A stretch of 35,365 nt of DNA. Source: a virus. Below, one piece after another: positions 3,142 to 35,365 of the stretch. The stretch is taken from positions 1 to 35,365 of IMG/VR virus record IMGVR_UViG_3300037042_002565, one strand, 5' to 3'. The notes beneath the pieces were generated by a model. It worked only from the letters and a program-made list of their open reading frames with translations, was not told the DNA's origin and did no database searches. A program made the translations under genes and the position numbers. Every line of letters starts with the position of its first letter. Positions within the stretch are counted from its first letter, which is position 1.

Positions 3142-4619
3142 CTTTTATTGCAGCAGGGGCATCAATAGCGGCGGCAGCGTCATCGGTAGCAGCGGGTGCA
3201 GTGGCGGCGGGCACAGCTATTGGGGCGGGTGCAGCGGCAGCGGGTTCTGCTATTGCGGGTGGGGCAGCGGCAGCGGGCTCTGCTTTGGGTATTGGTGCAG
3301 GTGCAGGTGCTGCTGGTACAGCCGCTGGTATTGGTGCAGGTGCAGGTGCTGCTGGTACAGCCGCTGGTATTGGTGCAGGTGCAGGTGCTGCTGGTACAGC
3401 CGCTGGTATTGGTGCAGGTGCTGCTGGTATTGGTGCAGGTGCAGGTGCAGGTGCTGCTGGTACAGCCGCTGGTATTGGTGCAGGTGCTGGTACAGCCGCT
3501 GGCGCTACAGGTACTGGTATTAGCACAGGATTATTAGGTGGTGGTTCAGCTCTTGGTTCTGGTGCTGGCGCCACTGGAGGCTTGACAGGTGGTGGACTTG
3601 GCGGTGTTGGTGGACTTGGTGGTGTTGGTGGACTTGGTACTACAGGCTCTATAGGTGGGGCATCGGGTAGTGCAGGTTTAGGAGGTTTTGGTTCTGGAAC
3701 ACTAGGTGCTGGGGCGGGTACTGGTAGTTCTAGTTTAGCGACAGGGACAGGTATAGGCGGGCTTAGTGGTGGCTCAACAGCTTTTGGAAGCGGTGTTGGT
3801 TCTGGTGCTGGGGCCACTGGAGGCTTGGCAGGTGGGTCTGCTGGTGGTGCTGGTGGTGCTGGCGGTGCAGGCGGTTTGGGTGCGTCAACAGCATCTGGAG
3901 GAACAATGAACACCCCCGGACTTCTTCAACAGGGTATGGCATTAGTAGCTGAACACCCGTATATTGCAGGGGGAGCAGTAGCACTGGGAGCAAGGGAGTT
4001 AATGACCCCTGAATATGAACCCTATAAAAAACCTAAGAGTAGCTCTATCGGTGGAGCGCCAATATCTAAAGACTTTAAACCTTATTGGGCTGATCCTCAA
4101 CTATACGCTGACGGTGGGGCGGTAGATTCTATGCAAGCGCCGCAACCTATGAATAAGTTTGTACAGATGGGCTTAGAACAGGGACAACAACAAGCTAACC
4201 AACAAGCTAACCAACAAGTTGCCCCACAAGGCATTGCTCAGGTAGCACCACAAGGGGTTACTCAAACTGCTCCAGCACCAGCAGTAGGTATTGGATATGC
4301 TAATGGCGGGTTAACAGGCGATAACTTAGGCGGATACTCGCATGGTGGTATTGCGGGTTTAACTAGGGGCCCAGGTGATGGGGTTTCAGATGATATTCCC
4401 GCTGAGATAGGCGCTAGTGGTAAGCAACCTGCAAGGCTCGCCGATGGTGAGTTCGTTATAAGCAGTCGTATCGTCTCTGAATTAGGTAATGGCTCTACTG
4501 AAGCTGGTGCAAAAAGATTACAAGCAATGGTGGATAGGGTACAATCACGTAGGGAAAAGTCTATTGGTAAAGGTAAAGTTGCTGTTGATTCTAAATCTGC
4601 CAAAGAACTAATAGCATGA
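3138..4619 (+). CDS. Gly/Ala-rich repeat virion protein
   Basis: The protein has 493 residues. Residues 1-50 are almost pure Ala/Gly/Ser. Residues 51-121 are built from a 13-residue repeat (GIGAGAGAAGTAA and shortened forms), and 122-255 continue as Gly/Ser-rich low complexity. The last 150 residues are normal sequence with a Gln-rich patch (about 345-375) and a C-terminal motif, GPGDGVSDDIPAEIG followed by ARLADGEFVISS and LGNGSTEAGAKRLQAMVDRV. I have seen this C-terminal block in many uncultured podovirus virion proteins, so the gene is a real virion gene and not an artefact of repeats. Function is unknown; a flexible or membrane-active internal protein is possible. Both ends overlap neighbours by ATGA. 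Confidence 0.6.
   Translation: MTFIAAGASIAAAASSVAAGAVAAGTAIGAGAAAAGSAIAGGAAAAGSALGIGAGAGAAGTAAGIGAGAGAAGTAAGIGAGAGAAGTAAGIGAGAAGIGAGAGAGAAGTAAGIGAGAGTAAGATGTGISTGLLGGGSALGSGAGATGGLTGGGLGGVGGLGGVGGLGTTGSIGGASGSAGLGGFGSGTLGAGAGTGSSSLATGTGIGGLSGGSTAFGSGVGSGAGATGGLAGGSAGGAGGAGGAGGLGASTASGGTMNTPGLLQQGMALVAEHPYIAGGAVALGARELMTPEYEPYKKPKSSSIGGAPISKDFKPYWADPQLYADGGAVDSMQAPQPMNKFVQMGLEQGQQQANQQANQQVAPQGIAQVAPQGVTQTAPAPAVGIGYANGGLTGDNLGGYSHGGIAGLTRGPGDGVSDDIPAEIGASGKQPARLADGEFVISSRIVSELGNGSTEAGAKRLQAMVDRVQSRREKSIGKGKVAVDSKSAKELIA
3288..3500 (+). repeat. 39-bp coding tandem repeat
   Basis: Three perfect 39-bp units (3288-3326, 3327-3365, 3366-3404), each encoding GIGAGAGAAGTAA, are followed by rearranged shorter units to 3500. 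The unit is a multiple of three, so copy-number change would keep the reading frame. The perfect DNA identity implies recent expansion. Confidence 0.9.
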
Positions 4620-8797: not shown

Positions 8798-11700
8798 ATG
8801 AGTGAAGAAAACTATGAAAGATATATTCAAGAAGCTGCTAAAAGTAAAGGTGTTTCACCAGACCTTTTAAAATCGCTCATTGAACAAGAATCTAATTTTC
8901 GACAGTTTGATAAAAATGGGAACCCATTGACTCCGGGAACAAGTACGGCTCTAGGTCTAACTCAGATGATTCCTAGATGGAACCCTGAGTATGACCCTGC
9001 ATTATTGGCAAGTGACCCTGAATATAATATCCATGCAGGTGCGCACAAGTTACGAGGATTGATTGATAAGGCTAACCCTGCTCTTGATCAGGGGCAAAAA
9101 GAAATATGGGCGCTAGGTAAATACTACGGGAGTAAAGACCCGTATGAAAATAAAAACTACGCTAACTCTGTTATGGGTAAACGTGGGAAATACCTTGAGG
9201 ACGTAGCTGTTGGCCCACCATCTGACTTACCTAAAATTGAAGGGTTAACACCAGACGAAGTTGCTTGGTATCTGCAAGATAAAAAGGAACGAGACGCGCA
9301 AGCTGCCCAAGCAAAACCTGTCGAACAACAAGGTACATTTGGCGCAGCGTTGGGTCGAGGTATTGAGGGCGTAAAGCAATCTGGGCAAGGTGTTGTAACT
9401 GGTATTGAATCGCTGTTAGGTTACGATGAGGATGTTCAAAAAAGATTAGAGGAACAACACGCACAAGACAAACTGGTAGCCGAAGCTGAAGCTAAAGGGC
9501 CAAAGGCTACGTCCTTTCAAGAGATTGAAGATACGGCTAAGAATGACGGTGTGTGGGCGGCTCTTAAAAAGATTCCCGGCTATGTTGGCGAAAAGATTGT
9601 TGAATCAGCTCCAGCAACTGCTGGCCCGTTGGCTGCAGGTTTAGCTGCTGGCGCGGTTTTCCCACCTGCCGCTATTCCCGTAGGTATTGTTGCAGCCATT
9701 GTTCAAGAATTTGGATCAATGATTGATGAGCAAATGGATGCAGCAAAAACTGCGGGCGAGCTTGATCCAGAACGGACAATCTTACCTTCTATCGCTGCGG
9801 GTGCGCTCGATTCTATTGCAGACAGGTTTACCCTCGGTATGAAAATACCCGGTATGGGTAGGGCTGTTAAAGAGGCTGCTGAAAAAGAAATAAATAAAAC
9901 ATTTGGTGGGGAACTGTTAAAACATGCAGGTCGTGGTGTTGTTACAGAAGGCCCAACAGAAGGTATACAAAGAGAATTAGAACGTTACGCTGCAGGCAAA
10001 CCGTTAACAGGTGATGAAGCGTTTGCAGATGTTAAAGAATCTGTCGCTGGTGGCGCTGCCGCTGGTGGTGGCGCAGCGACTGTTATGGGCGCACCTCAAG
10101 CATATGTTGCCGCCTCTGATTCCAAACAAGCTCGTGAAGACTTGACCAATGAAGCAATAGCTGTTGCTGACGGTGATGTTGAGTTAGATGCTGAAAAGTT
10201 TAGAAACTATGGCCCTGCAATGGCTCGCGCGTTAGCTCAAAACAACGAGGGTATGAGTACACAAGATGCTTTTGAGCTATTACGAAGCAAGGTTGGTGTA
10301 AAGATAGAAGAAAAGTCGGATGAAGATTACGGACCAAGCACCATTCCATCCGTAGATACCGAACAAGCTACCGAAGCTGAAGCACCAATAACCGAAACTG
10401 AAACACCAGTAACCGAAGCTGAAACCGTTACACCCGAAGCTGAAACACCTGTAGAAACACCTGAAGCTAACGCACCAAGATATTCGGTAGCTCAAGATAG
10501 TGCGGCAATAAAAACTGCTCAAAAAAATAACACATACGCTGGTAAATCAGGATTCATGGAAGGTGTGTCACAACCTAAAGGTACGTCCAGTGATAAGTTG
10601 TTTTCTAACATGGATGAGGGCGGGTACGATTACGGTCATGGTTCCCCAGAAACCAAAGAGCGCATAAAAAAGATATTTAGAGAAAAAATGTTTATCCGTG
10701 CCGCTAAAAACATAGACACACCTGAAAGTAAATATCATGACGTGTCGATACAACCTTTTGTTAATGACACCAATATAAAAGTGGTTGCAGGCAAGCAAGG
10801 CGCGGCAATAGGACAAACATCTGTTGGTGTTTATAAAGGGGATGAGTTAGTCTCTGTTGCGCGTATTGAAGATGGTAAAATAGATTCTATTGGTACAAAA
10901 GACGATTATCGTGGGCAAGGTTTTGGCACTGAGTTGTTAAAATATCTTCGAGATAATAACATTGCTAATATTTATGAAGTTCCAGACAGATCTCCGGGAT
11001 TTACCGCGATACAAAAGAAAGTTATAGGGGAAGAACAAACTCAAGAAAAACCCACACAAGATGGTGTGACCCACGTAATTGCCCCATCTAGGGCAACCAC
11101 TCGTTACACAGCCGAACAGTTATCCCAAACACTAAGCCCCGAAATGAGGCGACTTGTCGAGTCGGGTAAGGCTGTTTTGCATGATACCCAAGCGACACTT
11201 CCCGGTGAGAATCACCCTGCGAATGTTCAAGGTATGACTACAGCCGATGGTGTTACTCACTACGTGGCTAACAAACTTACACCAGAATCCATGCAAAATG
11301 TGGCGCTACACGAAGTGGGCGTACATGCTGGCATGGAGAAAATGCTTGGTGCTAAGGTTTGGGAGGATGTTAAGAATCAAGCCATGACCAATCAAGGTAA
11401 AGAGTTTGATGCGGCTCGTGCGGCTGTTCCTAAAAACACACCTGCAAACTTACGTGCTGAAGAAGCACTTGCATACCTTGTTGAAAACAGTCGTCACTTA
11501 CCCTTAGTGCGTAGGATCATCGCAGCTATTCGTAACTTTATGCGTACCACTCTTGGTACAAACATCAAGCTTACAGAAGCCGATGCTCGGCAGTTGGCGG
11601 TTACGTCAATGCGTAGAGAGTCTAAAACATCAGAACGAACTGCTCGTAAGGAAACTGCGTTTAGCAAGGGAAAAGAATCTTCAAAATTAAAAATAAAACC

Positions 11701-14608
11701 TGTAGAAAAACTCACAACCGAACAACCTCGTTACTCAATAAAACAAACGTTTGAAGACGAACTCGGATCGTTTAAACAACAAGCGGACGGGGCAAGTGAT
11801 AAGGTTCTACCGTGGTTCTTAAATATATTTAGTGCGTCAGGTATTTATGAGCTTGGTGCAAAGTATCTAAAGGGCGGTAAAGCGGTATTAAAAGCTACCC
11901 GTGAGCTGTCGGGTATGCGCGACAAGATGTTAACCGAAATGGCTAACATGCGTAAGAATAGTTTTAACCCGTACATTAAGAAGAATCATAAGCAGTTAAA
12001 ACTTCTTGGTGATGTTCAATCTGAAACAACCTTGTTAGGTGTATCACCACGAGCAAAGGTTGGAGAAGAAGGTAACATCAATGACAAGATCACTAAGTTA
12101 GAAGCCGATAGACCAAAAGGTTTTGCTCAACTTATTCATCGTTTACAAGCATTGCAAATAAACTATGCAAAATTAAACCCTGAAGGTAAGCGTGTTTATG
12201 GTGAAATGGCTAAGTATTACAAAGATTCAATGGATAGGTATATTGAAGCCTACGAGCATAGTATAAAAACGTCCGGCATTAGTCCTGAGATTATAGCAAA
12301 GCAACTTGCAGTGTTTGGGGAACAAGTTAAAAACATTAAGGGTAAAGGTGATTACTTTCCTTTAATGCGTTTTGGCAAGTATGGTGTTGCGTATACTGAT
12401 GGGGATGTTGATTCTGAAACAGGTAAACTTATTAAAAAGTTTACTAAGTTTGACACATCGTCAGAGGCTAAAAAATTCTTAACTGATGTGAAAGTAAAGG
12501 GATATATTGTCCCCGACATAAAACAGTTCAATAAAGAAATAATTGGTGACAACAAATCAATGATGGATTTGTATGCGCAAATAGATAAATCTTTTGAGGG
12601 TACGCCTGAAGAGTCTATGGAAGGGTTGAAGGATTTTGTATTTCAGATGCATTTGATGGGTAAGTCTGATCAAAGTATTGGTAAGCAGTTTATTCATCGT
12701 AAAGGCACTGCAGGTTACTCTAATGATGTGTTCAGAGCGTTTGATAGCTATGCGATGAACATGTCAAGACAGCTACCTAGAATAAAGTTGGGTCGTAGTA
12801 TTAGCACGGGTTTATTAGATATTAAAAAGAACCTGCATGGTGAGATCATGCGAGGCACGTTTGAGGGTGATGTTGTAAAAGCAAATAGTTATTACGAAGC
12901 TTTTAACAGAGAAATTCTCGATGCGTTACACCCTAAGTTAACAGGCCCGATCTCTAACTTTGCAACAGGCGCTGCATTTAGCTATTATTTAACTTCACCA
13001 GCATCTGCGTTACTACAGTTATCTTCTATCGCATTGCAAGGTATACCGAGCATTGGTAAGACACACGGGTATGTGTTGGCTCACTCTGCTATGACTGCTG
13101 CAGCTAATTTATATGTTAGTAGTGGTATTGGCAAAGGTGTTGGGTTTTACAACATGGAGCGTGGGGCAAAAAAGTATAAGGATAAAAACAATGGCTATAA
13201 AAAGTTAATTGGTAATGCGACCCATGCTGATCAGTTTGACGTTGAGGCGGCTTGTCAAAGTTTTTTAAAAGAAGGTATCATAACAAGTGGTGTACATGCT
13301 GAAGCGTTTAGTGGTAAAGGTAGAACAACAGGTGCTCATGAGAACGTTATGCAAAAAGCGACAAACCTTATGGCTATCATGTCCCAACCTTTTGCTGAAA
13401 TGGAATCAGCATCGCGTCAAATTGTAGCCACGGCATCCTATATTGCCAACATGAAGTCAGGTATGACCCATGATCAAGCTGTAGAAAAAGCGATTGATTC
13501 TGTTTACTTAGACATGGGTGATTTTGGTTCTACAGGCAGGGCAACATTAACTAAAGGCGATATGGCTAGAGTGGTATGGCAGTTCCAACAATATGGGGCT
13601 AAATTATTATTCTCTATGGCTAAGTCTGCCCTGAACCTTGCCAGCAAAGATGGGCATGAGCGCAAAGAAGCTGTTAAACATTTGACAGGGATAATGGCAA
13701 TGCATTGGTTATTCGCAGGTGCGTTAGGTTTACCTGCGGCTGGTTTGATTGGTGGAGCAAACGATCTTATCAAAGACTTGTTAAGTGATGATGAGTGGCA
13801 TAACTATAAGGCTGATTTCAGATCGTACTTAGAGGCTAAAAATGTTGATGAGTCGTTTATTAATATTTTATTAGACGGCCCACTGTCAACAATACTCGAT
13901 CTTAAATTGTCACAAAGATTAGGCGCTCATGAAATCATACCAATGGTTCATGAGTCTGAAACACACGACACATTGGATGTGTCGGTAAAAGATAGATTGT
14001 TTGAAATGTTTGGCGGTGCGGCAGGGTCGTTGGTTGTCAATGTTTCGGACGGTTTAAAACTGTTTGCAAGTGGCGACACCGAGCGAGCTATTGAAAAACT
14101 TGTACCTAGTGCGCTAGTTAAGAACGTTATGATCGCAGGTAGGTTTGCCACAGAAGGTAAGATTAATGCCAAAGGTGATCAAGTTATCCCTAAAGAATCT
14201 TTCACACCTTTAGATATTGGCAAACAAGCGTTTGGCATTAGCCCATATAAAGTTATGCAAGGCGAAGAGATTGCACGTTCCGCTAAAACAGATGTTAGTT
14301 TTGCTGCAGATAAAAGAACCAAGTTGCTAGGGGAGTATCGTAAGATAGAAGATGTTGATGGGGACACTACTGAGATTGACAATAAAATAGATGCGTATAA
14401 TGACAAATACCCAGACACACCGATCCTTGCAAAGCATATAAGACAGTCTATAAAAACTGCCAATAGAGCTAAAGACAATTCAATATTTGGCTTCACGTTT
14501 GGTAAAGGTCGCGATGCAATGGAAGAAAAGTATGCGGGGATGATTAGAAATAAAGATTTTTATGAAAATCAAAACGAAGATGATTACGACTATGACAACA
14601 AAGATTAA
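8798..14608 (+). CDS. giant ejection/polyvalent protein with N-terminal lytic transglycosylase
   Basis: The protein has 1936 residues. Residues 1-130 form an SLT domain: LIEQESNFRQF with catalytic E31, then TALGLTQMIPRW, as in soluble lytic transglycosylases that open peptidoglycan during DNA entry. Residues 270-310 are hydrophobic and Ala/Gly/Pro-rich, a possible membrane-inserting segment. A Thr/Glu/Pro linker spans about 520-565. Around 690-720 is a GNAT-like acetyl-CoA loop (DDYRGQGFGTELLKYL). Around 838-845 is HEVGVHAG, with EALAYLVEN downstream, resembling metallopeptidase domains of phage polyvalent proteins. At about 1385-1430 is YYLTSPASALLQLSSIALQG, typical of a large-polyvalent-protein-associated domain. 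The C-terminus is very acidic. By position and domains it is the counterpart of T7 gp16. It is the last gene of the late operon and is followed by a terminator. Confidence 0.8.
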   Translation: MSEENYERYIQEAAKSKGVSPDLLKSLIEQESNFRQFDKNGNPLTPGTSTALGLTQMIPRWNPEYDPALLASDPEYNIHAGAHKLRGLIDKANPALDQGQKEIWALGKYYGSKDPYENKNYANSVMGKRGKYLEDVAVGPPSDLPKIEGLTPDEVAWYLQDKKERDAQAAQAKPVEQQGTFGAALGRGIEGVKQSGQGVVTGIESLLGYDEDVQKRLEEQHAQDKLVAEAEAKGPKATSFQEIEDTAKNDGVWAALKKIPGYVGEKIVESAPATAGPLAAGLAAGAVFPPAAIPVGIVAAIVQEFGSMIDEQMDAAKTAGELDPERTILPSIAAGALDSIADRFTLGMKIPGMGRAVKEAAEKEINKTFGGELLKHAGRGVVTEGPTEGIQRELERYAAGKPLTGDEAFADVKESVAGGAAAGGGAATVMGAPQAYVAASDSKQAREDLTNEAIAVADGDVELDAEKFRNYGPAMARALAQNNEGMSTQDAFELLRSKVGVKIEEKSDEDYGPSTIPSVDTEQATEAEAPITETETPVTEAETVTPEAETPVETPEANAPRYSVAQDSAAIKTAQKNNTYAGKSGFMEGVSQPKGTSSDKLFSNMDEGGYDYGHGSPETKERIKKIFREKMFIRAAKNIDTPESKYHDVSIQPFVNDTNIKVVAGKQGAAIGQTSVGVYKGDELVSVARIEDGKIDSIGTKDDYRGQGFGTELLKYLRDNNIANIYEVPDRSPGFTAIQKKVIGEEQTQEKPTQDGVTHVIAPSRATTRYTAEQLSQTLSPEMRRLVESGKAVLHDTQATLPGENHPANVQGMTTADGVTHYVANKLTPESMQNVALHEVGVHAGMEKMLGAKVWEDVKNQAMTNQGKEFDAARAAVPKNTPANLRAEEALAYLVENSRHLPLVRRIIAAIRNFMRTTLGTNIKLTEADARQLAVTSMRRESKTSERTARKETAFSKGKESSKLKIKPVEKLTTEQPRYSIKQTFEDELGSFKQQADGASDKVLPWFLNIFSASGIYELGAKYLKGGKAVLKATRELSGMRDKMLTEMANMRKNSFNPYIKKNHKQLKLLGDVQSETTLLGVSPRAKVGEEGNINDKITKLEADRPKGFAQLIHRLQALQINYAKLNPEGKRVYGEMAKYYKDSMDRYIEAYEHSIKTSGISPEIIAKQLAVFGEQVKNIKGKGDYFPLMRFGKYGVAYTDGDVDSETGKLIKKFTKFDTSSEAKKFLTDVKVKGYIVPDIKQFNKEIIGDNKSMMDLYAQIDKSFEGTPEESMEGLKDFVFQMHLMGKSDQSIGKQFIHRKGTAGYSNDVFRAFDSYAMNMSRQLPRIKLGRSISTGLLDIKKNLHGEIMRGTFEGDVVKANSYYEAFNREILDALHPKLTGPISNFATGAAFSYYLTSPASALLQLSSIALQGIPSIGKTHGYVLAHSAMTAAANLYVSSGIGKGVGFYNMERGAKKYKDKNNGYKKLIGNATHADQFDVEAACQSFLKEGIITSGVHAEAFSGKGRTTGAHENVMQKATNLMAIMSQPFAEMESASRQIVATASYIANMKSGMTHDQAVEKAIDSVYLDMGDFGSTGRATLTKGDMARVVWQFQQYGAKLLFSMAKSALNLASKDGHERKEAVKHLTGIMAMHWLFAGALGLPAAGLIGGANDLIKDLLSDDEWHNYKADFRSYLEAKNVDESFINILLDGPLSTILDLKLSQRLGAHEIIPMVHESETHDTLDVSVKDRLFEMFGGAAGSLVVNVSDGLKLFASGDTERAIEKLVPSALVKNVMIAGRFATEGKINAKGDQVIPKESFTPLDIGKQAFGISPYKVMQGEEIARSAKTDVSFAADKRTKLLGEYRKIEDVDGDTTEIDNKIDAYNDKYPDTPILAKHIRQSIKTANRAKDNSIFGFTFGKGRDAMEEKYAGMIRNKDFYENQNEDDYDYDNKD

Positions 14609-26780: not shown

Positions 26781-27187
26781 TTTAGTTTCCTTTTTTCTTG
26801 TATCAACCTGTGTAATGTTAATTGGAGTAGCTTAAGTTCTATCAGTTCGTGTGGGACTGATTCTCTTATTTGTGTATTTGATATTTTAAAAGTCAATGCC
26901 ATATTGGAAACGACAAGAGCAGTAGGATGCGCCGCACGGTATTTTTTTTTATGAGTAGCGCTCTTTTCAGGATTATTAGTGCGCCATTTTGCACAATTCA
27001 ACTTTCGCTTTTCAGGATTATTAGTGTGCCATTTTGCACAACTCAACTTTTGCTTTTCAGGATTATTAGTGCGCCATTTTGCACAACTCAACTTTTGCTT
27101 CTCTTTCTTAGTCTGCTCTAACGTCAATAATGTTTCTATCTCTAGCTGTAGTCTTTCTCGCAATATTGTTAAGTCTGGAATGTTCAT
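26777..27187 (-). CDS. 136-aa KWRxNNPEK-repeat protein (fusion of two neighbouring genes)
   Basis: Residues 1-20 (MNIPDLTILRERLQLEIETL) equal the start of the gene at 27470-27688. From LTLEQTKKEK onward the protein follows the gene at 27184-27498: a block of 15-residue basic repeats (three copies of K-L-(S/N)-C-A-K-W-(R/H)-T-N-N-P-E-K), AAHPTALVVSNMALTFKIS and the shared end LIQEKRKLK. The repeat type occurs as a spacer in HNH endonucleases, but no nuclease motif is present. The structure shows a tandem duplication followed by a deletion that fused the two reading frames. ATGA overlaps lie at both ends. Confidence 0.7.
   Translation of the reverse strand: MNIPDLTILRERLQLEIETLLTLEQTKKEKQKLSCAKWRTNNPEKQKLSCAKWHTNNPEKRKLNCAKWRTNNPEKSATHKKKYRAAHPTALVVSNMALTFKISNTQIRESVPHELIELKLLQLTLHRLIQEKRKLK
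26966..27100 (-). repeat. 45-bp coding tandem repeat, three copies
   Basis: Units at 26966-27010, 27011-27055 and 27056-27100 differ at only a few bases. Each encodes one K-x-K-L-x-C-A-K-W-x-T-N-N-P-E block. A related pair of 45-bp units (27373-27417 and 27418-27462) lies in the paralogous gene. Confidence 0.9.
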
Positions 27188-28523: not shown

Positions 28524-28745
28524 ATGAGTAGCATTACTAAAGAACTTTTTGACGAGATCATTTTACATTTCCAAACCCGATCAAAGTTAGCCCGATTGTT
28601 AGGTGTTGATCGCAGTGCGCTAACTAATTGGTATAAATCTAGAATTATTCCCCCTGCACGGGCCATACAAATAGAAATTATATCTGATGGGGCCTTCTTA
28701 GCTCGTGATATCGCTGGGGTTGGTTATGACCAGTCAAACGTATAA
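28524..28745 (+). CDS. Cro/YdaS-like helix-turn-helix regulator
   Basis: The protein has 73 residues. ITKELFDEIILHFQTRSKLA, then RLLGVDRSALTNWYKSRIIP and ARAIQIEIIS show the Cro-like order: helix 2 'SKLARLLGV', recognition helix 'RSALTNWYK', then the 'IPPARAIQIE' turn shared with YdaS/Cro proteins that bind operators as dimers. AAGGAT precedes the ATG. The gene runs away from the leftward operon and overlaps the primase-helicase start by 20 bases. I infer that it represses the leftward promoter or its own; there is no CI-like partner in the window. Confidence 0.8.
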   Translation: MSSITKELFDEIILHFQTRSKLARLLGVDRSALTNWYKSRIIPPARAIQIEIISDGAFLARDIAGVGYDQSNV

Positions 28746-31182
28746 AATCGCTATTGGTGGTAAGAATCTCGGAGTTTGCGAGAATCATGAATTCACATGG
28801 CCTGTGTTGGTCGAGAAACTAACTACGCATAAGCAGTCTGATAATAAAACAGGCGCATGGTTCTTAGGTGGCTCTGTCAAGGGTACTAAACGATCAGATA
28901 GTGAAATGGTTAGTCGTTCGGTCTTAACTTATGATATAGACAATTCGGGCATGACTCTTGGTGCAATCCAATACGAGTTGATCATGAATTTAGACTGTGC
29001 TTGGTTGGCTTACTCTACGTTCAGCCATACCGATGACAATCCTAAAGTCCGTGTGGTTATACCCCTTAGTAAAGAGATATCTCCTTCACAATATAAGGCG
29101 TTATCCATTAAGGTGGCTGAAGAAATAGGTATCCCTGTTGATTCAGCCAGTTTCGTACCATCACAAGCCATGTTCTCAGCACGTTGCAAGGACTTATCAA
29201 CAGCGTGGTCATTTAGTCAAGACGGTGAGCCTTATGAAGTGGCGCAGCCTTTGGCTCTAGTTAGTTCTAGTAGTCAGGCTGAGGGGCTAAAGGGAACGGA
29301 TGACGCTGATCTTGATGACGCTGTTAGAGGTTTGGAGTTGGCTGTAAGGGCGATCCCCAGCGATATTTCCGATCATGATGTGCAGTCGTACCTTGACGCA
29401 TACCCAGCAGGTGAACTTGATTATCATGGTTGGTTTGCTGTTTGCGCATCGATACATCACCAGTACAGCGGTTCGGATAAGGGTTTTAACATATGGTATC
29501 AGTGGTCTTTGCTAGGCAATGAGACTAAGAACGAGACCGAGCTTCGTGCTAAGTGGGACTCTATTAACGAGCGTAGCGTTCCCCGTACCTTTGCTAGTGT
29601 GATCTACGCTGTTAAAGAGTCTGGTGCGCAGGTCTTACTCGAAGCTTCGGGTATGTCGGCACATAGTGACGTGTTCGAACAATTGCTTGTGGACGCATCT
29701 GAAGTGTCAAGTTTGTCTGAATATGAAGACCTTAAGGCTCGGCTTCTTTCTATACCTACGTTCAAGTTGGGTGGCGACTTGCGGGGCATGTTGGCATCAG
29801 AGATCGCGCAGGGTTTTGGTAAGATGAAAGGTATCACTAAGGCGCAGATCGCCAAGGCCATTACGCCTGTGGGTAAGGGTGGTGGTGGTGTAATGTCGGT
29901 GGAAGATATCCCTGCATGGGTTGGTGATTGGGTGTTTATAGAAACCTTGTGCGAGTTCTATAATATAAGGTTGAACTATGGGATCAGGAAGGAGGCGTTT
30001 AACGCTAAGTATGATCGCGAAGGCGATTGCGTAGCCTCTGGCGTACCTGCATCGGTTTTGGCTTTGGTTGAGTATCGTATACCTGTTGTTGTAGGGCAGT
30101 TGTTTTGGCCCGGATGCGGTACGCTCATGCGTTACGATGGTAAAGCACTGGTTAACACCTACCGCGCGCATAACGTTACACCTGTGGTCGAGTATGATGC
30201 CGGAGGGTTGGAGGCGGTGCGTATGTTTGAGGCGCAGTTAGCGATGCTCTTACCTGTTAAGCGTGAGCGTGAGCTGTTGTTGCACTGGTTGGTGTTTGTT
30301 TATCAGAACGCGGGTAAGCGTTTGAACTGGTCGATTATCTTGCAGGGTGCGCAGGGTGCTGGTAAAACTTACTTTAAGGATGTAATGAAGCTTTTGATGG
30401 GCGCGAATGCGCGTTCGCTTGATCCGTCAGCCATTGGCGGGAGGTTTTCGGGGTGGGCGACTGGTTGCCTTTTGAATATAGTTGAAGAAATCCGTGTTAA
30501 TGGGGTTAATCGGTATGAAATTATGGATGCTATCAAGCCTTTTATAACGAATGCTGAGGTTGCTATCGAGCGTAAAGGTCGCGATCATGAAATAGTGCCT
30601 AACTTCACCTCGTATTTGTTCTTAACTAATCATAAAGACGCTGTTCCTATCGGTGATGGTGATCGCAGGTACTGTATTTTGTTCTCGGCTATACAAACAG
30701 AAGAGCAATTATATAAGATTTTTGGTGGTGAAGTGCCAACAGGCGAGTATTTTGATCGTTTATATGACGTTACTCGTGCGAATGTGGGTTCTTTAGCCAA
30801 GTATTTTACCGATTATGTGTTGCCTGATGACTTTAAACCGTATGGGCGAGCCCCATCTACTGAGGGTAAAGCTGAAATGGCAGGGTTATCTATATCAGAA
30901 AACCGTCAAACTTTAGAAGATTTGCTCGACAAACATCGTTGCGAATTGATAAATGAGCAGTTTATCGACATAACTGAGCTAAATAGACGATGTGTTTATG
31001 ATGGTGATGACGTTCCAAAAACGAGATCGTTGTCTGCAATTTTGTTAGAAAAAGGTTTTCGGCAGATTAAGGGGAGATGTTTTATGACCTATCAACCAAG
31101 ACAACGGCATTACGTTTGGATAAAAGAAGGGTTAGAAGACAAATATGCAATCGATAAAATCAAGGAACATTTAGACAACTAA
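28726..31182 (+). CDS. primase-helicase (AEP-like primase, PriCT, SF3/D5-type helicase)
   Basis: The protein has 818 residues from ATG 28726 (a GTG at 28705 is open but less likely). At the N-terminus, SVLTYDIDNSG (D70, D72), STFSHTDDNPKVRVVIPL (H101) and SFVPSQAMFSA fit the archaeo-eukaryotic primase pattern. Residues 195-300 look like a PriCT domain (LDYHGWFAVCASIHHQY, IWYQWS, WDSINERSVPRTFASVIYAV). Residues 530-650 are a D5/SF3-like ATPase: Walker A GAQGAGKT (541-548), Walker B LLNIVEEIR (E587, E588), motif C YLFLTNHKDA (N635) and an Arg finger in GDRRY. It should prime and unwind DNA at the start of replication. A likely origin follows immediately. Confidence 0.9.
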   Translation: MTSQTYKIAIGGKNLGVCENHEFTWPVLVEKLTTHKQSDNKTGAWFLGGSVKGTKRSDSEMVSRSVLTYDIDNSGMTLGAIQYELIMNLDCAWLAYSTFSHTDDNPKVRVVIPLSKEISPSQYKALSIKVAEEIGIPVDSASFVPSQAMFSARCKDLSTAWSFSQDGEPYEVAQPLALVSSSSQAEGLKGTDDADLDDAVRGLELAVRAIPSDISDHDVQSYLDAYPAGELDYHGWFAVCASIHHQYSGSDKGFNIWYQWSLLGNETKNETELRAKWDSINERSVPRTFASVIYAVKESGAQVLLEASGMSAHSDVFEQLLVDASEVSSLSEYEDLKARLLSIPTFKLGGDLRGMLASEIAQGFGKMKGITKAQIAKAITPVGKGGGGVMSVEDIPAWVGDWVFIETLCEFYNIRLNYGIRKEAFNAKYDREGDCVASGVPASVLALVEYRIPVVVGQLFWPGCGTLMRYDGKALVNTYRAHNVTPVVEYDAGGLEAVRMFEAQLAMLLPVKRERELLLHWLVFVYQNAGKRLNWSIILQGAQGAGKTYFKDVMKLLMGANARSLDPSAIGGRFSGWATGCLLNIVEEIRVNGVNRYEIMDAIKPFITNAEVAIERKGRDHEIVPNFTSYLFLTNHKDAVPIGDGDRRYCILFSAIQTEEQLYKIFGGEVPTGEYFDRLYDVTRANVGSLAKYFTDYVLPDDFKPYGRAPSTEGKAEMAGLSISENRQTLEDLLDKHRCELINEQFIDITELNRRCVYDGDDVPKTRSLSAILLEKGFRQIKGRCFMTYQPRQRHYVWIKEGLEDKYAIDKIKEHLDN

Positions 31183-31197
31183 TTTCTTGCAGGCCTT

Positions 31198-31520
31198 AGC
31201 CAGTACGCAATGTACCCAAAGTACGCAATGTAGTACGCAATAAAAAAACATTGCGTACTGGTCTAAACTATTGATTTATATCTCTTTATACTCTTTTAGT
31301 ACTCAATACTCAATAATATAGATAAATTAGTATATAGAAAATATATTTATAAAATATATAAATATATATAAAAAGAAATTTCCTATAGAGCTAATACAAA
31401 ATTGTGTTTTATTGCGTACCAGACCTGCCAAAACACCCCTCTAGCCCACGGCTGGCGCGGGTTGTCGTCAGTACTCAATGGTTTTGCTCATTGCGTACTT
31501 TGAGTACTTTTTAATTATTT
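31198..31520. other. putative replication origin: iteron-like repeats and AT-rich region
   Basis: The 348-base gap after the primase-helicase is noncoding. It holds direct copies of AGTACGCAATG (31202-31212, 31220-31230, and 31232-31241 minus one base) and the inverse CATTGCGTACT at 31249-31259 and 31489-31499. There is a partial inverse copy at 31411-31419 and variants AGTACTCAAT(G) at 31298-31307 and 31470-31480. Between them lies an A/T-only-like stretch (about 31311-31383). Repeats beside an easily melted region next to a primase-helicase gene are the classic origin arrangement. Function is inferred. Confidence 0.65.
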
Positions 31521-31530
31521 AGGAGGATTT

Positions 31531-32037
31531 TTGAAAATCAAACGAGAAGAAGGATCAAAACGAGGACAAAAGTTCTTAGAGCTAAATCAGACTCATGGTC
31601 GAGAGGGATTAAAAGAAAGACGAGCACGCGCAGAAACAAATATGGAGCTGATGTATTGTGTCGATATTTTAAAACTCACAGGTGATTTTTTACACGTTAA
31701 AAAACACGGAAAGGTAAAACAATTAAAAGAATATCAAAAGATCGAAACTTTAGAACATGCGAGTCAGTATGTAATCGATGAGATAAAAAAAGATAATATC
31801 GCTAAGGCTATCCGAGAAGACGAAGAACTTAACGGAGCAAAGCAACGATGTATTGATGAGATAAAGTATGAAAATCACTTTGTAAAGCTTGAGCAAGACC
31901 TAATGGCTATTCAATCGGTTATCGACTGGTTACCAACCACTAGAGCCGACAATAAATGGAAGGAGTTTGCAAATCACCCAAGATTAATCAAATACGCCAA
32001 ACCACACGTAAAATGGCCTAAGAAAAAAGCAAAGTAA
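31531..32037 (+). CDS. 168-aa basic protein beside the putative origin
   Basis: A TTG start at 31531 is supported by a perfect AGGAGG site 4 bases upstream; no in-frame ATG gives as good a fit. The protein is highly charged: KREEGSKRGQKFLELNQTHG, ERRARAETNMELMYCVDILK, TGDFLHVKKHGKVKQLKEYQ and a Lys-rich end (VKWPKKKAK). It is mostly helical with no known family. Placement directly after the repeat block suggests a DNA-binding or replication role; this is inference. It ends near a hairpin at 32050-32066 and converges on the cell-wall hydrolase gene. Confidence 0.65.
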   Translation: MKIKREEGSKRGQKFLELNQTHGREGLKERRARAETNMELMYCVDILKLTGDFLHVKKHGKVKQLKEYQKIETLEHASQYVIDEIKKDNIAKAIREDEELNGAKQRCIDEIKYENHFVKLEQDLMAIQSVIDWLPTTRADNKWKEFANHPRLIKYAKPHVKWPKKKAK

Positions 32038-35051: not shown

Positions 35052-35112
35052 CAACAAAGATTAAATTTAATTTAAAAGGCTAAAATCCAGGTGATTTCAT
35101 AATCCCTATATA

Positions 35113-35219
35113 AATCAATAACTTAAATATCGCACCTAAACAACGATAACGTGTTAAGCAATACAAACCATTAGCTAAAGTATTATTGTTCAGTGAGCGC
35201 GATATCTAAGTTATTGATT
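35113..35219. repeat. large imperfect inverted repeat
   Basis: The 21 bases at 35113-35133 are the reverse complement of 35199-35219 with a single mismatch, and weaker pairing continues inward. The 65-base spacer has no gene. The flanking stretch 34974-35252 (279 bases) shows no open frame with a ribosome site. The dyad could be a protein-binding or replication site, or a mobile-element end. Confidence 0.75.
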
Positions 35220-35252
35220 CATAAGGCATTATTGATATCGGCAAGCATTGCG

Positions 35253-35365
35253 GCTCAATGCTCAATGCTCAATGCTCAATGCTCAATGCTCAATGCTCAA
35301 TGCTCAATGCTCAATGCTCAATGCTCAATGCTCAATGCTCAATGCTCAATGCTCAATGCTCAATG
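35253..35365. repeat. perfect heptamer tandem array (GCTCAAT), truncated by the window end
   Basis: Sixteen exact copies of GCTCAAT plus one base run to the end of the sequence. The plus strand has no stop in any frame (it would encode AQCSMLN over and over), while the minus strand has TGA in every frame. There is no ribosome site, so it is treated as noncoding. The true length is unknown. Confidence 0.95.

Follow-up and report, generated by a model that had tools for sequence, protein, structure and literature searches.

Genes and repeats at the locus

The window, which is the whole stretch of 35,365 bases of a virus contig, shows no repeat of at least 10 bases at its ends, so the record may be a fragment. 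An operon on its plus strand begins with a Cro-like helix-turn-helix regulator (28524–28745; Pfam P22_Cro, E 1e-10), found in the same place in relatives, and contains the gene of a primase-helicase (28705–31182, plus strand) of 825 residues when counted from a GTG, with an ATG at 28726. Both genes point away from the replication operon, which encodes a polymerase, a ssDNA-binding protein and an exonuclease, the first two assigned via PHROGs. This gene order is matched in the Casjensviridae phages JS26, AhaSv, SS2019XI, AH2 and BcepNazgul, in the Vibrio phages LP.1 and 1.017.O and in the Pseudoalteromonas phage AL. Between the primase-helicase stop (31182) and a basic 168-residue ORF with a TTG start (31531–32037, plus strand), preceded by AGGAGG at 31522–31527, lies a gap of 348 bp (31183–31530). 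A sequence-only reading of this DNA had described a repeat-filled gap between these two genes, and its coordinates were confirmed. The role that it envisaged for the 168-residue protein was not supported: no relative of this protein was detectable among the related loci, it has no family and no significant phage match, and it lies outside the conserved module described below.

The primase-helicase was characterized using Pfam, PDB profiles, AlphaFold2 and Foldseek, and is composed of an archaeo-eukaryotic primase (AEP) domain, PriCT_2, a DUF5906 AAA+ domain and a predicted C-terminal winged helix. Pfam reports DUF5906 and PriCT_2 only, and the protein belongs with the DUF5906 phage primase-helicases that carry a fused AEP/PriCT; it also matches phage primases. 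The N-terminal domain was recognized as an AEP by profile matches to ORF904 and by its DhD motif, present as YDID, in which D77 and D79 are invariant. The domains are well modelled by AlphaFold2 (mean pLDDT 85, pTM 0.48). For the DUF5906 half, the nearest solved structure by both sequence and fold is the helicase region of NrS-1, followed by the African swine fever virus PrimPol and poxvirus E5. The NrS-1 helicase is ring-shaped (PMC8718748), and by analogy with this relative the window protein would be an AAA+/SF3-like ring helicase. In the model, the C-terminal 110 residues fold as a winged helix (residues ~732–807, 30898–31125 on the plus strand, from the AlphaFold2 secondary structure), which is the proposed reader of the repeats. 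This C-terminal domain has no Pfam family and no Foldseek match at E ≤ 0.001, and since its matches among solved structures are many winged helices with low scores (best Z 5.9), the assignment is one of fold and not of family. Locus L052 was excluded from the structure alignment on account of a stop in its frame. As a separate observation, the AEP domain of the window (28705–29304) is only ~15% identical to the Casjensviridae AEP, with the helicase half in common, which suggests that domains have been exchanged among primase-helicases of this kind.

With at most one mismatch allowed over the 9 nt, AGTAC(G/T)CAA occurs nine times in the gap, counting both strands, as against a maximum of four in 200 dinucleotide shuffles; the direct and inverted copies of an 11-mer, the CTCAAT variants and the AT-rich stretch noticed by the sequence-only reading are indeed there. 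The exact 11-mer, AGTACGCAATG, starts at 31202 and 31220 on the plus strand and at 31249 and 31489 on the minus strand, and has no further copy in the 35,365-base record. Near copies start at 31232 (plus, one mismatch) and 31410 (minus, two mismatches), and the CTCAAT variants at 31298 and 31470 (plus) and 31498 (minus). When two mismatches are allowed, the 11-mer is not enriched in the window as a whole (12 occurrences, 10.6 expected), so that its clustering is the significant feature.

A left array (31202–31259) consists of iterons at 31202–31212, 31220–31230 and 31232–31242 on the plus strand and at 31249–31259 on the minus strand. It is followed by a conserved box, TAAACTATTGATTT (31264–31277, plus strand), the minus strand of which matches the IHF consensus, and, 20 bp past the box, by the single iteron AGTACTCAATA (31298–31308, plus strand) at the left edge of an AT-rich core. 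This core (31309–31409), the proposed DNA unwinding element, reaches 96% A+T (94–96% in 50-nt windows starting at 31313–31333). The right iterons (31410–31508) lie at 31470–31480 on the plus strand and at 31410–31420, 31489–31499 and 31498–31508 on the minus strand. An Rfam search gave no match. Inverted repeats in such a place might be transcription terminators ending the primase gene, and in two relatives (L044 and L045) a T run after a pair of iterons does give the look of one; however, no terminator-like site was found in the window gap, and the left-core-right order and the right-hand array would stay unaccounted for. Termination as the purpose of the gap is extremely improbable, but it is possible that iterons double as terminators in some relatives.

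A module recurring in related phages

Direct searches of viral contigs with the window primase, the 168-residue protein and the repeat-pair pattern gave no relative, and a profile search was therefore needed, which added 80 viral and 21 bacterial loci; the survey covered 111 related loci. A locus was counted as positive when the 450 nt after the stop codon contained a repeat family above all 60 shuffles, which was the case for 71 of the 111 loci and for 58 of the 79 at ≥30% identity. Six or more copies were present in 62/111 gaps and in 45 of the 2,133 control windows taken within these loci. Repeat density in the positive loci is 18.3 per kb in the gap, a figure inflated by the unit having been picked there, as compared with 0.39 per kb elsewhere; the shuffle test is fair because the shuffles carry the same in-gap choice of unit.

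The letters of the iterons vary from phage to phage, with layout and position shared by dozens of related tailed phages. The gap of JS26 has CTACGCAAT six times, three times direct and three times inverted, that of AH2 14 copies of AGGTCCGAA and that of LP.1 10 copies of TATCCGGTT, and the counts are 10 in BcepNazgul, 12 in AhaSv and 8 in AL. Judged from these sequences, the gap layout after the primase-helicase gene is a conserved module, of which the exact 11-mer is a phage-specific version; conservation in relatives, which was among the checks listed by the sequence-only reading, was found for the architecture and not for the 11-mer itself. About a quarter of the loci at ≥30% identity are negative by the strict count, including L021, L024 and L023, in which the putative origin is displaced. 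The closest relatives (L019, L021 and L024, ~50% identical) were negative or doubtful in the strict scan and have the same module, with TGTCCT repeats, ~350 bp away from the gene; in L023 it lies further on. The strict iteron count was not passed by FoX4, E21 and 19 of the 21 bacterial-contig matches. For the plasmid-like state that had also been proposed, no evidence was found: the annotated relatives are tailed phages, and plasmid records yielded only remote DUF5906 relatives.

Another possibility is that the gap serves in packaging, partition or recombination. Sites of these three kinds use repeats as well, and BcepNazgul has an annotated cos overhang ~0.6 kb past its primase stop, but there the cos and the array are separate places, the repeats stay with the primase-helicase despite differing downstream layouts, and no partition gene was recognized among the scanned ORFs; hardly any weight is given to such sites. 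The repeats might instead be operators through which the Cro-like or the 168-residue protein regulates the flanking genes, as the Cro-like gene at the start of the operon and promoter-like sequences in the AT-rich core could suggest. However, repeats are at background (0.32 per kb in the positive loci) in the 600 nt before the gene, the expected place of action of Cro, the promoter-like sequences do not exceed chance in number, the 168-residue protein is not conserved, and the similarity of the repeats tracks the helicase part of the primase-helicase (see below). Operators are thus regarded as very unlikely.

The module runs in this order: left iterons, the IHF-like box TAANNNNTTGWTTT, one iteron in helical phase with this box, an AT-rich core of ~100 bp and inverted iterons. 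In most box-bearing loci the left iterons stop 2–6 bp short of the box, which is then followed by one iteron, or two in some. Of 44 non-redundant loci, 15 have a perfect copy of the box, against an expected 0.2, and 30 have one with at most one mismatch (4.3 expected), an excess that is somewhat overstated because the consensus was written after some of these loci had been viewed. The box of the window fits the IHF consensus exactly and those of other loci loosely; an exact IHF consensus is present in 13/79 loci, versus 1.5 expected. For DnaA boxes there is a weak excess (exact match in 6 loci, 2.6 expected). Iterons to the left and right of the box were in opposite orientation in all 21 loci in which this could be measured. 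The distance from box to iteron clusters at 17–21, 28–32 and 40 bp, i.e., about one helical turn apart (Rayleigh p ~1e-6, uncorrected for the relatedness of the loci), and such whole-turn spacing matches what a bend joining bound proteins would require.

Alternatively, the origin might be recognized as a folded structure, either a cruciform or a stem-loop such as that suggested for pRN1 ORF904, in which case the repeats would matter by pairing only. As single-stranded DNA the gap folds far better than shuffles (z −5.6), and pRN1 needs a stem-loop right after its AEP-helicase gene (PMC4234260). Yet any inverted repeats would fold likewise, copies in the same direction occur often (three successive ones in the window, L043 and L045), copy number and order vary, and whole-turn spacing suits bound duplex DNA better, which leaves the folded form an unlikely explanation.

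A GC-rich element, TGGCGCGGGTTG in the window (31453–31464, plus strand), was considered as a general part of the module and rejected, being restricted to few loci: TGGYGYGGSYTG is exact in six loci, and is a striking common element only of the window, L019, L021, L024 and JS26. It adjoins the core in the window, L019, L021, L024 and L005, and is near-identical in distant phages (JS26), but the side of the core differs. The element might be a priming site.

Proposed initiation at the gap and its known counterparts

The similarity of the repeats between 44 loci was correlated with that of the middle, AAA+ and C-terminal regions of the primase-helicase (rho 0.52–0.55) and less with that of the AEP (0.33). 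When the AAA+ region was allowed for, no correlation was left for the AEP (−0.01), and those for the C-terminal and middle regions persisted (0.24 and 0.25). The reader of the repeats would accordingly be the helicase side of the protein, but the correlations may in part be attributable to common descent and closeness on the DNA.

We estimate at roughly 0.8 the probability that the gap is the replication origin of the phage, at which the primase-helicase would load itself, with replication of the theta type if the steps proposed here hold; the repeats after the gene are very probably the place where replication starts. What the sequence itself shows, and what this reading draws on, is the presence of the repeats, how they are ordered and oriented, the box and its spacing, and the conserved location behind the gene. 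The binder, the ring loading, the melting, the part played by IHF and the two-way theta replication we infer as follows. The primase-helicase, made from the adjacent upstream gene, would bind the iterons, most likely via its C-terminal winged helix, and assemble as oppositely facing rings that flank the AT-rich core. A bend at the conserved box, probably introduced by host IHF, would join the left array with the single iteron at the core edge. The facing rings would then open the core, the AEP domain would prime synthesis, and the phage polymerase and ssDNA-binding protein would extend. Initiation in two directions is suggested by the face-to-face arrangement of rings and iterons. GC skew, which had been put forward as a check, proved uninformative: it tracks the gene strands in this fragment, has its lowest value close to 27 kb, where the divergent promoter lies, does not switch at the gap, and therefore lends the origin no independent support.

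An iteron-type origin paired with a primase-helicase, as first suggested, appears well supported by sequence, since the arrangement recurs in most relatives and has precedents (PMC7581432). For the same two reasons, the recurrence after the gene and the published downstream origins, the system that the sequence-only reading could not name may be called a self-loading initiator-helicase origin, SaPI/SCCmec-like by analogy. SaPI Rep and Cch2 are self-loading helicases, each of which binds short repeats that immediately follow the gene encoding it (PMC7581432), and the window origin may work like these; short repeats directly downstream of the helicase gene are common to them, the window and the 71 positive loci. 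The same paper reports primase and helicase in a single protein for SaPI5 Rep, as in the window, and binding of the iterons by the C-terminal domain for Cch2, the counterpart of which would be the predicted winged helix. SaPI Rep and Cch2 belong to staphylococcal satellite or cassette elements, unlike the window phage, and no mention of an IHF-like box or of helical phasing was found for their origins in the passages of PMC7581432 consulted. Their Pfam families also differ (Primase_Cterm and D5_N in SaPI5 Rep and Cch2, DUF927 in SaPIbov1 Rep, DUF5906 and PriCT_2 in the window), and the window protein is not filed in their group because the helicase family is a different one.

The alpha protein of P4 is similar in that one protein binds origin repeats via a winged helix, unwinds and primes (as summarized in PMC4234260), but its primase is of the TOPRIM type, whereas that of the window is an AEP. 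Satellite phage P4 also has a second site, crr, and no counterpart of it was found here. Closer in domains are pRN1 ORF904 and phage BIP-1, with an AEP, SF3 helicase and winged helix and an origin just after the gene (PMC4234260); that origin is a stem-loop (~100 nt) without iterons, whereas the window has iterons. Stem-loops were proposed for AEP-SF3-winged-helix proteins in general (PMC4234260), and the window origin runs counter to this assembly proposal, which does not fit it. In the NrS-1 PrimPol of a Nitratiruptor phage (PDB 6k9c, 6k9e, 6lrb), the PrimPol is fused to the nearest solved helicase relative, but its gene is not followed by a gap (stop at 4550, next gene at 4554). NrS-1 was rejected as an iteron precedent, having no array in two neighbouring gaps; its primase site TTTGGTTA occurs once in the 7.6-kb stretch. 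Iteron plasmids of the Rep/RepA type share iterons, an AT-rich core and an IHF-like site with the window, and differ in that the window initiator would itself be primase and helicase; no plasmid Rep family was matched in the flanking ORFs scanned.

The kind of origin is accordingly known, and the papers searched contain no description of the form that it takes here in many tailed phages. We lean, by a little over even odds, towards a class of phage origin that is widespread, extends over Casjensviridae and many marine phages and had not been described before, and in which an AEP-DUF5906 primase-helicase recognizes the iterons downstream of its gene, with fixed convergent geometry, helical phasing to an IHF-like bend, and iteron letters and helicase/C-terminal half co-changing to give each phage its own specificity. 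No description of such a class was found in the open literature, subscription papers being mostly outside the search; the AH2 genome paper mentions neither repeats nor iterons (PMC3483164), and the papers searched are silent on how replication starts in Casjensviridae-like siphophages and their marine relatives. The result offers a candidate site and initiator, together with a DNA geometry and a rule of specificity, which could be tested with one purified protein and a short DNA, and compact self-loading origins whose specificity can be exchanged would be of use in building plasmids.

Further repeats and a large protein in the window

Sixteen perfect tandem copies of GCTCAAT (35253–35365) run into the contig end. 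Related arrays are present in the close relatives L043 and L023 ~4.2–4.5 kb past the primase, as TTGAGCC repeated 8 or 15 times followed by GAGCCA repeated 31 or 22 times, and L023 also ends within its array; other relatives (L073 and L060) have different 7–8-nt arrays. The GCTCAAT array was also found in seven other viral contigs (L121–L127), two of which start inside it, and it probably breaks assemblies. Beside the array in the window lies a 41-nt imperfect inverted repeat (35109–35223), with arms that carry an exact and a near IHF-like box (TAAGTTATTGATT); the exact match is the only one in the record outside the origin.

A 1936-residue protein is encoded at 8798–14608. Its C-terminal part matches DarB-like antirestriction proteins and its middle weakly an endolysin family, and it is probably an ejected virion protein. 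Within an ORF of the early region, a 45-bp tandem repeat is present in three copies (26963–27100).
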